Part shown: positions 1-4,461 of the stretch, piece after piece
Position numbering within the stretch: position 1 is the stretch's first letter
How the letters are laid out: each line of letters opens with the position of its first letter
Assembly: GCA_012728095.1 (NCBI GenBank)
Contig: JAAYFU010000023.1
Location: forward strand, 1-37,490
Length of the DNA: 37,490 bases
DNA from: Clostridiaceae bacterium
GTDB taxonomy: Bacteria > Bacillota > Clostridia > DSM-8532
Direction of reading: 5' to 3'
Translations under genes and position numbers: made by a program
The notes under the pieces: generated by a model
What the model saw: only the letters and a program-made list of their open reading frames with translations
Database searches by the model: none
Told to the model about the DNA's origin: nothing

Positions 1-1017
1 CTCTACAATCGCGGAGAGGAACGAATAAGGGCGATAAAAGAAAGAAAAGGTATAGAGATACTTTCCAACAATGATAACATTGTCCATGGATTTGCCGAAC
101 TGAAAATCGTAACTTCAAATATAGCCGAAGCTATTCATGGAAGAGATGTCATTATGGTGGTGCTCCCTGCGACAGGCCACAGGTTTATTGCAGAACAACT
201 GGCACCGCACCTTGTTGACAATCAGATTATTGTCCTGAATCCGGGCAGAACAGGAGGAGCCCTGGAGGTGCTGGCTGTCCTGAGAGAAAAAGGTTGTACT
301 GCTGATGTCGTAGTGTGTGAAGCCCAGACGCTTCTCTATGCCAGCCGTTCCATAAACCCTGGCCAAACCCAGATTTTCCGTATAAAAAACAGCGTTCCGG
401 TAGCCGCAATTCCTGCTCACCGGACTCCTGAGGTGGTTAATATACTTCGTACTGCTTTGCCGCAGTTTATACCCGGCGATAATGTTATGAAAACCAGCCT
501 TAATAACATTGGATCTATTTTCCATCCGGCGGTAACGGTGCTGAACGCAGGCAGAATAGAGAGCACGTTTGGTGATTTTGAATATTATACAGAAGGAATA
601 ACGCCATCTATCGCATTGATATTGGAAAAAATGGACAAAGAACGTGTCAGCGTTTCCGAGGCCCTGGGTTTCCAGGCCATGACAGCCAGGGAATGGTTGT
701 ATTTCGCTTATGATGCGGCAGGCCGGACCCTTTATGAAGCAATGAGAAACAATCGCGGCTACGATGGTATCATGGCTCCAAAGACGATTATGAACAGGTA
801 CATTACTGAGGATGTTCCTATGAGTCTGGTTCCTATTGCTTCCCTCGGAAGGCTTTGTGGTGTGTCAACACCCGTTATTGATTCTATTATTCTTTTAAGT
901 TCGGTATTGCACAATACGGATTATTGGGCAACGGGACGAACAGCTGACAGGATGGGGCTTACGGGTATGACGCTGAAGGAAATAAGAAGCTTCATCATCG
1001 AGGGAATAAGAAAATAG
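1..1017 (+). CDS. Octopine/opine dehydrogenase family NAD(P)-dependent oxidoreductase, 5' end missing
   Basis: The frame is open from base 1, so the protein enters from outside the window; the first ATG at 154 is internal. What remains is the second half of a Rossmann domain (VIMVVLPATGH around base 150) and the alpha-helical octopine/nopaline dehydrogenase domain, recognisable by NNIGSIFHP near base 505-530, where the family has a conserved His-Pro. This family reductively joins an amino acid to a 2-oxo acid, or catalyses the reverse oxidation, using NAD(P)H. The substrate cannot be read from sequence. The stop is 15 bases before the next gene, with AAGGAG in the gap, so the two are almost certainly cotranscribed. 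The nucleotide-binding GxGxxG motif lies upstream of the window and cannot be checked. Confidence 0.82.
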   Translation, partial: LYNRGEERIRAIKERKGIEILSNNDNIVHGFAELKIVTSNIAEAIHGRDVIMVVLPATGHRFIAEQLAPHLVDNQIIVLNPGRTGGALEVLAVLREKGCTADVVVCEAQTLLYASRSINPGQTQIFRIKNSVPVAAIPAHRTPEVVNILRTALPQFIPGDNVMKTSLNNIGSIFHPAVTVLNAGRIESTFGDFEYYTEGITPSIALILEKMDKERVSVSEALGFQAMTAREWLYFAYDAAGRTLYEAMRNNRGYDGIMAPKTIMNRYITEDVPMSLVPIASLGRLCGVSTPVIDSIILLSSVLHNTDYWATGRTADRMGLTGMTLKEIRSFIIEGIRK

Positions 1018-1032
1018 AAGGAGTGATTAGCA

Positions 1033-2703
1033 ATGAAAGGAAAAATTATTGCTGGCGCAATTGGGAACTGTGTACACGTTGCGGGAGTAGTTAGATTCCT
1101 CAAGTTAGCCGAAGAACTGGGCTATGAAGTAAGGTTTTTAGGAGCTGCCGTTCCTGTTGACGAGTTCATAAAAGAGATTCAAGATTATGAACCGGATATT
1201 GTCGGGATAAGTTACCGGTTGACACCCGAGGTTGCTGAAAGACTTCTCCAGGATTTTAAGACTAAAATAGGCAAAGAGGCATTATCCAGGTATAGATTTG
1301 TATTTGCAGGCACTCCTCCGGTATGTAGAGTGGCGGAAGAAACCGGGATATTCGAGCGCTGTTTTACAGGCCTGGAAAACACATCAAAGGTCATGGAGTT
1401 TTTAGGATGCAATGAAGGAGAATGTCTAAAGAAGCAGAGAAGTGATAACCTGCTTGACAGACTGGAATCAGCAAAGCCGACTCCAATACTTCGCCATCAT
1501 TTTGGTCTTCCTGACCTGGAAAGGACAATACAGGGAATTCGTGAAATTGCCGAGTCCGAAGTGTTAGATGTCATTTCTATTGCACCGGATCAAAATGCCC
1601 AGGAATCCTTTTTCAGACCTGAAGAAATGGATCCCATGCAGAGCGGAGGCGGGGGTGTTCCCTTACGCAGCAGGGATGATTTGATTCGTATTAAGGAAGC
1701 CAGCCGGACAGGGAACTATCCGTTGCTCCGTATTTACAGCGGAACAAGGGATCTTTTGTCATGGGCTGAGCTTTCGAAGGAAACTATCAATAACGCATGG
1801 GGCGCTGTACCTCTATGCTGGTACAGTGTGCTTGACGGACGGTCAAAACGTCTTCCCGAAGACGCTATAAGGGAGAACCAGGAAGCAATGAGCTGGTATG
1901 GGAGAAACAACATTCCGCTGGAAGTTAATGAAGCTCACCATTGGAGCCTTCGGGACGCACATGACGCGATTGCTGTAGTTATGGCATATCTGGCGGCATA
2001 TAACGCAAAAGCAATGGGAGTAAAACACTATATTGCGCAGTATATGTTTAATTCGCCGCCGATGATAACGCCGGCCATGGATCTTGCCAAGATGCTGGCC
2101 AAAATTGCTCTTATTGAATCGCTTCATGACAAAAACTTTATTTCATACAGACAGGCACGGGCAGGTTTGCTGCATCTTTCTCCGAGGGAGAATGTCGCAA
2201 AGGGACAGTTGGCTGCTTCAACCGTCCATGCACTCCAGATTAAGCCGGATATTATTCACGTCGTAGGTTACTGTGAAGGCGATCATGCGGCAGAAGCAAG
2301 GGATGTAATAGAAAGCTGTGAAATAGTGCAGGGTGTTATCAGAAATTGTATTACCGGCAATGCTGATTCTAAAATAGATCCTGAAGTAATAAAAAGAAGA
2401 GACGAACTTCTGGAAGAAGCTTCAGTAATTCTGGATGCCATAACAGAATTAGGCCGAATGATGGGCAGAATCGAAGATAACGATCCATTAACAAATCCCG
2501 CTGTATTGGCCGAAGCCATCAAAGTTGGAATACTGGACGCGCCGCACTTAAAAGGCAATCCCTATGCCGCAGGTCAACTGGAAACCCGCTGTATAGAAGG
2601 CGGAATAGATGCGTGGTGTAAAAAGGAAGAACGCAGGATATTTGAAAGGGAAAGACTGTCAAAATATGTCCAGTTGAAATCTATCAGGCCTGTATATACC
2701 TGA
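1033..2703 (+). CDS. B12-binding plus glutamate-mutase-E-like fusion protein
   Basis: This is a 556-residue cytoplasmic protein. Residues 1 to about 135 resemble the small cobalamin-binding subunit of glutamate mutase (GlmS/MutS): the GAIGNCVHVAG segment aligns with the DxHxxG loop, keeping His15 and Gly18 but with Cys13 where Asp is usual. Residues from about 150 to the end resemble the large TIM-barrel subunit (GlmE/MutE, methylaspartate mutase E family), most clearly in the C-terminal AEAIKVGILDAP and YAAGQ segments, which match the end of clostridial GlmE. Known glutamate mutases carry these parts on two polypeptides; here they are one chain with the B12 domain first. The likely role is an adenosylcobalamin-dependent carbon-skeleton rearrangement, but the substrate is unknown. 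It follows the opine dehydrogenase-like gene by 15 bases with a good AAGGAG site. Confidence 0.75.
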   Translation: MKGKIIAGAIGNCVHVAGVVRFLKLAEELGYEVRFLGAAVPVDEFIKEIQDYEPDIVGISYRLTPEVAERLLQDFKTKIGKEALSRYRFVFAGTPPVCRVAEETGIFERCFTGLENTSKVMEFLGCNEGECLKKQRSDNLLDRLESAKPTPILRHHFGLPDLERTIQGIREIAESEVLDVISIAPDQNAQESFFRPEEMDPMQSGGGGVPLRSRDDLIRIKEASRTGNYPLLRIYSGTRDLLSWAELSKETINNAWGAVPLCWYSVLDGRSKRLPEDAIRENQEAMSWYGRNNIPLEVNEAHHWSLRDAHDAIAVVMAYLAAYNAKAMGVKHYIAQYMFNSPPMITPAMDLAKMLAKIALIESLHDKNFISYRQARAGLLHLSPRENVAKGQLAASTVHALQIKPDIIHVVGYCEGDHAAEARDVIESCEIVQGVIRNCITGNADSKIDPEVIKRRDELLEEASVILDAITELGRMMGRIEDNDPLTNPAVLAEAIKVGILDAPHLKGNPYAAGQLETRCIEGGIDAWCKKEERRIFERERLSKYVQLKSIRPVYT

Positions 2704-3273: not shown

Positions 3274-4461
3274 ATGAAGGCAGCAGTCAAAAACAGGTAT
3301 CTCATTCTTGTGATGGGGATGATTATTCAGCTTTGCGCGGGCATAATTTATATGTGGAGTGTGTTTAAAGGCCCCGTTTCAACTCATCTTTCGTGGGATT
3401 CAGCCAGTGCTTCAATTACTTCGTCGATCATGCTTGCCACATTTGTTATCGGAATAATCATAGGCGGGCGTATGCAGGATAAATATTCACCTGCGCCGGT
3501 AGCTTTGGCAGGAAGTATCTTCCTTGGTGTGGGAATGATTTTAAGCTCATTTACTCCACAGTCTTCTCCATGGTTGATTTATATTTTTTATGGAATAATA
3601 GGCGGCTTTGGAGTCGGCTGTGTCTACACCACCACTGTATCGGTAGTACAAAAATGGTTCCCGGACAAGCGTGGATTTGCAACGGGAATGATGGTGGGAG
3701 CATTCGGATTTTCTCTTGTTTTATTCGCTCCGTTGACCAATATGTTGCTAATAAACTGGGGAGTGCCAAAAACATTCTTGTTTTTTGGTATTTTGTTTTT
3801 AATCATATGTTCCGTCTGTTCGATATTATTAAGCAATCCCGAAACAAAACAGCAAAGTGGTATGTTAGTAAGTACCCAAAAACAATATACGACTAAAGAG
3901 ATGCTTCGAACCAAGGAGTTTTACCTTCTTACATTCTCCATGTTCTTCCTTTTACCCGCATATTTTATACTGAATCCACTGTTTAAATCGTTAGGAATGG
4001 AGCGGGGACTTACAGATAGTATGGCTACTTTTGGAGTAATGCTTACTGGTGTGGCAAGCGCCAGCGGACGGTTGCTTACTTCATGGTTTTCTGATTATGC
4101 AGGAAGAAAAAACGCTATATACCTGATTTCCCTGATTACTCTTGTTGCCGCTCTGGCTATGATATATGCCGAAGGCGTACTGTTCCTGGTATGTATTGCA
4201 GCCATTGCATTTAGTTTCGGAGGATCTGCCAGCGTATATGCGGCTACGGCTGCTGATTTGTTTGGTACTAAGCATATGGGGCTTAACTATGGGTGTGTTA
4301 TGGTAGGCTTTGGTGTATCAGCGCTGTTATTCCCAATCATATCTAATCTTTTAAGCGCTACGGGAGTGTATACATATTCGTTTATGGTAGCGGCAGCAGG
4401 ATGTGTTATAACACTCATTCTTGTCGCGTTTTTAAAAGTTCCCGGAAAGGCCGGCAAATAA
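3274..4461 (+). CDS. MFS transporter, OxlT-like (oxalate/formate antiporter family)
   Basis: A 395-residue inner-membrane protein with about 12 hydrophobic segments. The start region (YLILVMGMIIQLCAGIIYMWSVF), the GGRMQDKYSP loop between TM2 and TM3 and the KWFPDKRGFATGMMVGAFGF segment are typical of the OxlT branch of the major facilitator superfamily, which exchanges small carboxylates such as oxalate/formate or lactate. The real substrate cannot be assigned; many clostridial members are only annotated as OxlT-like. AAGGAG precedes the ATG by about 10 bases. It has its own promoter at 3108, so it need not belong with the B12 enzyme upstream, although a carboxylate carrier beside such an enzyme would make sense. 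A hairpin at 4544 probably ends the transcript. Confidence 0.85.
   Translation: MKAAVKNRYLILVMGMIIQLCAGIIYMWSVFKGPVSTHLSWDSASASITSSIMLATFVIGIIIGGRMQDKYSPAPVALAGSIFLGVGMILSSFTPQSSPWLIYIFYGIIGGFGVGCVYTTTVSVVQKWFPDKRGFATGMMVGAFGFSLVLFAPLTNMLLINWGVPKTFLFFGILFLIICSVCSILLSNPETKQQSGMLVSTQKQYTTKEMLRTKEFYLLTFSMFFLLPAYFILNPLFKSLGMERGLTDSMATFGVMLTGVASASGRLLTSWFSDYAGRKNAIYLISLITLVAALAMIYAEGVLFLVCIAAIAFSFGGSASVYAATAADLFGTKHMGLNYGCVMVGFGVSALLFPIISNLLSATGVYTYSFMVAAAGCVITLILVAFLKVPGKAGK

Follow-up and report, generated by a model that had tools for sequence, protein, structure and literature searches.

A gene pair for a predicted B12-dependent mutase and an opine dehydrogenase, often under c-di-AMP riboswitches, as a candidate osmolyte pathway

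We describe a two-gene system in which a predicted adenosylcobalamin-dependent mutase (B12E) is paired with a predicted opine dehydrogenase (ODH). In 31 of 80 carrier genomes, against about 0.06 expected, a c-di-AMP riboswitch (RF00379) lies directly upstream of the pair. Since c-di-AMP is an osmotic-stress messenger, this frequent switching suggests that the pair probably makes a protective solute. The mutase and the dehydrogenase, joined in some species by an amide ligase, would produce an amino-acid-derived osmolyte, a reading to which we give roughly an even chance. The broader proposal, that the system is a B12-dependent, c-di-AMP-controlled pathway to a new class of compatible solute, carried by about one fifth of the sampled genomes of the phylum, is tentative and falls somewhat short of an even chance.

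In the proposed pathway, B12E would belong to the glutamate-mutase superfamily as a carbon-skeleton mutase whose substrate pocket has been rebuilt, and would isomerise an amino-acid-type substrate via radical chemistry. ODH would condense an amine with a 2-oxo acid to give a secondary amine; either of the two steps could come first. A Ddl-like ATP-grasp ligase, or else an asparagine-synthase-like enzyme, would in some species go on to cap a carboxylate as an amide and so neutralise it. The product would most likely be a small compatible solute that is synthesised at low c-di-AMP levels, that is, under osmotic stress. If this is true, the supply of vitamin B12 is tied to osmotic tolerance, and a new reaction type is added to the B12 radical enzymes. 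A preliminary description of the DNA had proposed an uncharacterised pathway in which a B12-radical rearrangement is tied to a secondary-amine amino acid. The mutase and the linkage of the pair partly support that proposal, but the pair had already been predicted in 2009. The same description missed the riboswitch control and the partner ligases that depend on ATP, the two most telling hints of what the pair does.

The pair was found at the start of the window, by which we mean the whole stretch of 37,490 nucleotides that was analysed. Its relevant features are the following.

1 to 1017, forward strand: ODH, C-terminal 338 residues; PF02317 (Octopine_DH), E 5.7e-50, 169.7 bits against a cut-off of 30
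1033 to 2703, forward strand: B12E, 556 aa, a single chain with B12-binding and GlmE-like (methylaspartate-mutase-like) parts, 15 bp behind ODH
1039 to 1353, forward strand: B12-binding domain of B12E, residues 3-107; PF02310, E 3.4e-11
1069 to 1086, forward strand: motif C13-V-H15-V-A-G18 of B12E, inside the B12-binding domain
1444 to 2634, forward strand: GlmE-like barrel of B12E, about residues 138-534; 359-372 collinear columns with GlmE in hhalign
3274 to 4461, forward strand: MFS carboxylate transporter of the oxalate/formate-lactate family; NCBIfam NF049980, 314 bits

The window starts at a contig end (contig C75), and the ODH frame is open at position 1. The missing 5' part, the first 36 codons or so, is located on contig C12, which was reached via a 127-bp contig overlap. 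The joined ODH begins MQNENAKKMYKFAILGAGHGG..., and its start falls at L003:235 (minus strand). The join is supported by synteny, because a large glycoside-hydrolase gene upstream of ODH is shared with a relative (L005). No terminator-like site was found in the 570-bp gap between B12E and the MFS gene. The downstream gene, described earlier as an OxlT-like carrier, does encode an MFS protein, but the NCBIfam model of the L-lactate transporter fits it better (314 bits, cut-off 320) than that of the oxalate/formate antiporter (176 bits). It adjoins the pair in the two closest relatives (L004 and L005) and is absent from that position in L006 and the wider family. The transporter was rejected as a third pathway member since its adjacency is restricted to those two near relatives, and its membership in the system is doubtful. 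The other neighbours considered as partners (Lgt, Lnt/Crp, MatE, PEPCK and O6-methylguanine methyltransferase) were judged to reflect local synteny.

The pair itself is conserved far more widely. Sixty homologous loci were read, all with B12E, and ODH is linked on the same strand in 57 of them. The order ODH-B12E is found in 52 of the 60, the two genes mostly overlapping or lying within about 100 bp, so that the tight coupling first noticed in the window (15 bases) is borne out across homologous loci and the linkage does hold in other genomes. In one locus (L046) an ATP-grasp gene is inserted between ODH and B12E. The three unlinked loci comprise one contig end (L051) and two genomes (G660 and G695) that have ODH elsewhere. 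In a protein search of 391 genomes of the class, 21 gave full-family matches and 17 others matched by the B12 domain alone. When 348 genomes from across the phylum were sampled, a profile search detected the B12E family in 72. The distribution within the window's genus is patchy, as 4 of 11 sampled genomes carry the pair. The family profile had no match in the viral contigs scanned, nor in plasmids.

Riboswitch control is one of the best guides to what the pair may do. The genome-wide search of the 80 carriers returned 115 c-di-AMP riboswitches, of which 32, in the 31 genomes mentioned above, are correctly oriented near B12E; a riboswitch was assigned to the pair if it lay on the right strand and within 2.8 kb of the B12E start. 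The other 49 carriers have no c-di-AMP riboswitch at the pair. Where present, it precedes ODH or a ligase gene ahead of ODH, with a gap to the first gene of 5-366 bp in the 21 loci measured. Riboswitch-led pairs span 16 families, and on the B12E tree the riboswitch label has to change at least 8 times, which indicates that the link was gained or lost repeatedly. As a control, 20 loci of true GlmE were searched and none carried a c-di-AMP riboswitch. Co-regulation persists where the two genes are separated: in both G660 and G695, the gene that comes first after a c-di-AMP riboswitch is the unlinked ODH (L160 and L188). A stem resembling an intrinsic terminator lies between riboswitch and ODH in L117 and L114, which would fit an OFF switch; none was found in L042. 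Other genes behind c-di-AMP riboswitches in a sample of the regulon include TrkH, permeases, DapB and cell-wall hydrolases. In published reports, these riboswitches control osmotic and cell-wall genes, their targets include the uptake and synthesis of solutes (PMC9337991, PMC7266159), and c-di-AMP/Na+ riboswitches control ablA, which leads to the osmolyte precursor beta-lysine (PMC9337991).

The window itself departs from this pattern. No c-di-AMP riboswitch was detected in its ODH leader even at E<=5, nor at the pair in its genus. The genus has Ddl at the canonical level only (76.9 bits), and searches of the window genome found neither a specialised ligase nor GlmL, an accessory protein discussed below. 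The osmolyte role is therefore assigned to the window genome by extension. Two c-di-AMP riboswitches occur elsewhere in that genome (contig C80, 12466-12603, and contig C5, 47216-47351; loci L150 and L151), where one lies ahead of a dapB-like gene and the other ahead of an SH3/NlpC-P60-like gene for a cell-wall hydrolase. Another riboswitch class was seen once: at locus L011 of G134, a fluoride riboswitch (RF01734; positions 182-243, 50.3 bits, gathering 34) lies some 120 bp ahead of the point where ODH starts, and no other pair was seen under this element.

Ligase genes form the second group of clues. A Ddl-like ATP-grasp ligase is encoded inside the riboswitch-led operon in five genomes (G328, G621, G708, G664 and G418). 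In three others (G507, G540 and G614) only two c-di-AMP riboswitches were found, one leading ODH-B12E and one leading a Ddl-like ligase that belongs to the subfamily seen in the operons. In G724 and G430 it is AsnB-type genes that lie behind a c-di-AMP riboswitch. For the AsnB neighbours the best-scoring model is asparagine synthase B, with TIGR03104 below its cut-off. Two of the riboswitch-led proteins stand out.

L164, 247-1740: asparagine-synthase-like protein directly behind a c-di-AMP riboswitch, beginning MYRIAG...
L179, 1490-2941: asparagine-synthase-like protein directly behind a c-di-AMP riboswitch, beginning MSRIVA...

Both are without the N-terminal Cys, so that use of glutamine is probably impossible, and they may be ammonia-using or lactam/amide-forming ligases.

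These same ligases allow another interpretation, which is the main rival to the osmolyte reading although we judge it unlikely. The pair would make an unusual amino acid for the cell envelope (a peptidoglycan cross-bridge or surface polysaccharide), to be attached by ATP-grasp ligases, Ddl-like or other. Ddl-like ligases in the operon would suit such a role, and cell-wall hydrolases are also among the genes under c-di-AMP riboswitches. Some pairs are located within surface-polysaccharide loci, which point in this direction as well: L046, with its intervening ATP-grasp gene, lies among Wzx/Wzy-type and UDP-sugar genes; L130 carries a DegT aminotransferase and an ATP-grasp gene, and L148 a glycosyl transferase and an ATP-grasp gene. 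However, most pairs are stand-alone two-gene operons that include no envelope genes, and in G507, G540 and G614 the riboswitch-controlled set that was found consists of the pair and the ligase alone.

A catabolic role is improbable. Under this alternative, ODH would split an opine into an amino acid, an oxo acid and NADH, and B12E would feed one of the products into fermentation. Glutamate mutase and ornithine aminomutase channel their substrates into fermentation in this way, and GlmL, which accompanies some of the pairs, serves elsewhere as an accessory protein in the fermentation of glutamate and ornithine. The amidohydrolase genes that neighbour L037 and L137, and the MFS carboxylate carrier behind the pair in the window, also count in its favour. 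On the other hand, the operons of the pair show no recurring fermentation genes, whether for ammonia lyase, CoA transferase or others, and a catabolic route is unlikely to involve ligases that consume ATP. The riboswitches, too, argue for synthesis or uptake of solutes, for which they have been reported (PMC9337991, PMC7266159).

The assignment of ODH to the octopine/opine dehydrogenase family, made at the outset, is confirmed by the PF02317 match above cut-off and by an invariant triad. Full-length matches link the family profile to CENDH (1bg6) at E 2.8e-117 and to octopine dehydrogenase (3c7a) at 1.2e-48. H211, R302 and D307 (L004 numbering) are invariant in 46 ODH homologues and align with the catalytic His, Arg and Asp of 1bg6 and 3c7a. 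An additional invariant Arg, R119 (L004), is located in the sequence NPGRTGG, which reads NPGATGG in CENDH. ODH is best explained as a predicted NAD(P)-dependent opine dehydrogenase dedicated to B12E.

The cobalamin-binding domain of B12E is recognised by PF02310, and its His15 is present without exception in the 50 aligned homologues covering the position. The Gly of the DxHxxG motif is nearly invariant across the family. The first reading of the window, with Cys13 in place of the usual Asp and His15 kept, holds for the family at large: the residue two positions before the cobalt-binding His is Cys in 43 and Asp in 3 of the 50 homologues. A second, diverged subgroup (L049-L053) has the normal DAHTLG motif with Asp present. 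The window genome carries a cobalamin adenosyltransferase (E 1.6e-51). A structure model of B12E, computed with the window and the near-identical L004-L006 as input, reached a pLDDT of 42 with the B12 domain alone folded, and is too poor to use. In L148 (8466-10366), B12E is split into two frames of 395 and 244 aa, by a frameshift or as a true two-subunit form.

The barrel was compared with GlmE at profile level. The window protein did not match Met_asp_mut_E (PF06368) even at E<=10, nor was it recognised above cut-off by TIGR01503; two relatives match PF06368 weakly, the better at 9.8e-5. In hhalign, the B12E barrel was collinear with GlmE across 359 columns, with a score of 56.6 and a probability of 90.6%. 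The controls stayed far lower: 22.0 at most for GlmE with shuffled columns, 12.3 for reversed GlmE and 12-20 for nine unrelated families, while methylmalonyl-CoA mutase gave 24.4 over 70 non-collinear columns. GlmE and methylmalonyl-CoA mutase, which are known relatives, score 43.6 against each other, which makes B12E no more distant from GlmE than these two accepted relatives are from one another. As judged from these profile alignments, the relationship between B12E and GlmE is distant but real. The one-chain fusion of a MutS-type B12 domain and a MutE-like domain is thus supported, and no characterised family with a different activity was found among those examined.

GlmL/MutL provides independent support for a B12-radical mutase, as the following fusions and neighbours in relatives indicate.

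L128, 1739-5380: B12E-GlmL fusion, 1214 aa, beside a diverged ODH
L129, 6309-10007: B12E-GlmL fusion, 1233 aa, beside a diverged ODH

In both, the B12E chain continues into a C-terminal GlmL/MutL domain (PF13941, E 4.9e-81 and 7.5e-82). A separate GlmL adjoins the pair in L139 (NF040745, 496 bits, cut-off 475) and in L143, whose GlmL clusters with that of L139. That B12E is instead a corrinoid methyltransferase or a cobalamin-dependent sensor is very improbable: the B12 domain does score best in a library scan with methyltransferase corrinoid proteins such as MtgC, and DxHxxG is common to both classes, but the barrel aligns with GlmE along its length, GlmL is known from adenosylcobalamin mutases, and no corrinoid-activation gene recurs beside the pair.

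B12E is probably a mutase acting on a substrate other than glutamate. In the profile alignment, the residues with which GlmE binds glutamate, namely R66, R100 and R149 (the arginine claw), E171 and K326, correspond to B12E H156, Q190, Y235, a gap and V411, while E330 and Y177 are retained as E415 and Y264. With the glutamate-binding arginines out of register, glutamate is probably not the substrate. Two conserved arginines, R154 and R233, lie two residues off two of the claw positions and could take over from the claw. The initial label of glutamate-mutase-like therefore stands for the fold and the probable chemistry but not for the substrate. Among genomes with B12E, some (G020, G054, G134 and G189) may also have methylmalonyl-CoA mutase, and usually there is no true GlmE; within the class, G189 alone of the sampled genomes combines B12E with GlmE. 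Elsewhere, L074 (G022) encodes a GlmE homologue at 421 bits, compared with 726-785 for its kin, which is possibly a mutase with another substrate.

Matched by description, the B12E family is almost certainly one that was predicted in 2009 (BMC Genomics 10:78; PMC2667541). The passage in question describes a B12 family from 11 bacteria, given no function, with an N-terminal B12-binding domain and a predicted TIM barrel, "always adjacent" to a PF02317 octopine/nopaline dehydrogenase and, in several of the organisms, close to D-Ala-D-Ala ligase and asparagine synthase (PMC2667541). Our family has the same domain order, linkage and Ddl-like or AsnB neighbours, whereas that passage draws no link to glutamate mutase or GlmL and the study mentions neither c-di-AMP nor ydaO (PMC2667541). 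What is new is the glutamate-mutase/GlmL relation, the loss in register of the arginine claw, the CxHxxG motif, the c-di-AMP control and the co-regulation of unlinked genes. Our literature search, with the 2010 and 2013 c-di-AMP/ydaO papers outside its range, returned no report joining opine dehydrogenase with glutamate mutase, or octopine with a c-di-AMP riboswitch. The riboswitch link makes the role of the family directly testable.

B12E resembles GlmS/GlmE in its B12-binding Rossmann domain, its collinear barrel and, for four relatives though not for the window genome, a GlmL that is fused or adjacent. Unlike the separate S and E subunits it is one chain, mostly with Cys for the DxHxxG Asp, and without counterparts of R66, R100, R149, E171 and K326 in register. 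To our knowledge, glutamate mutase is not known as a partner of opine dehydrogenase. ODH shares the full-length profile match and the His/Arg/Asp triad with CENDH and octopine dehydrogenase, but differs from them in its extra invariant Arg and its obligate B12 partner. Synthesis of the osmolyte NAGGN (N-acetylglutaminylglutamine amide) employs an ATP-dependent peptide ligase and an asparagine-synthase-like amidotransferase and, in contrast to the pair described here, neither a mutase nor an opine dehydrogenase. AblA is a radical-SAM enzyme, not a B12 mutase, and its system differs from the B12E-ODH pair in having no opine dehydrogenase. The ablA/beta-lysine system nevertheless offers a parallel, in that a mutase makes an unusual amino acid under the control of c-di-AMP and/or Na+ riboswitches (PMC9337991).
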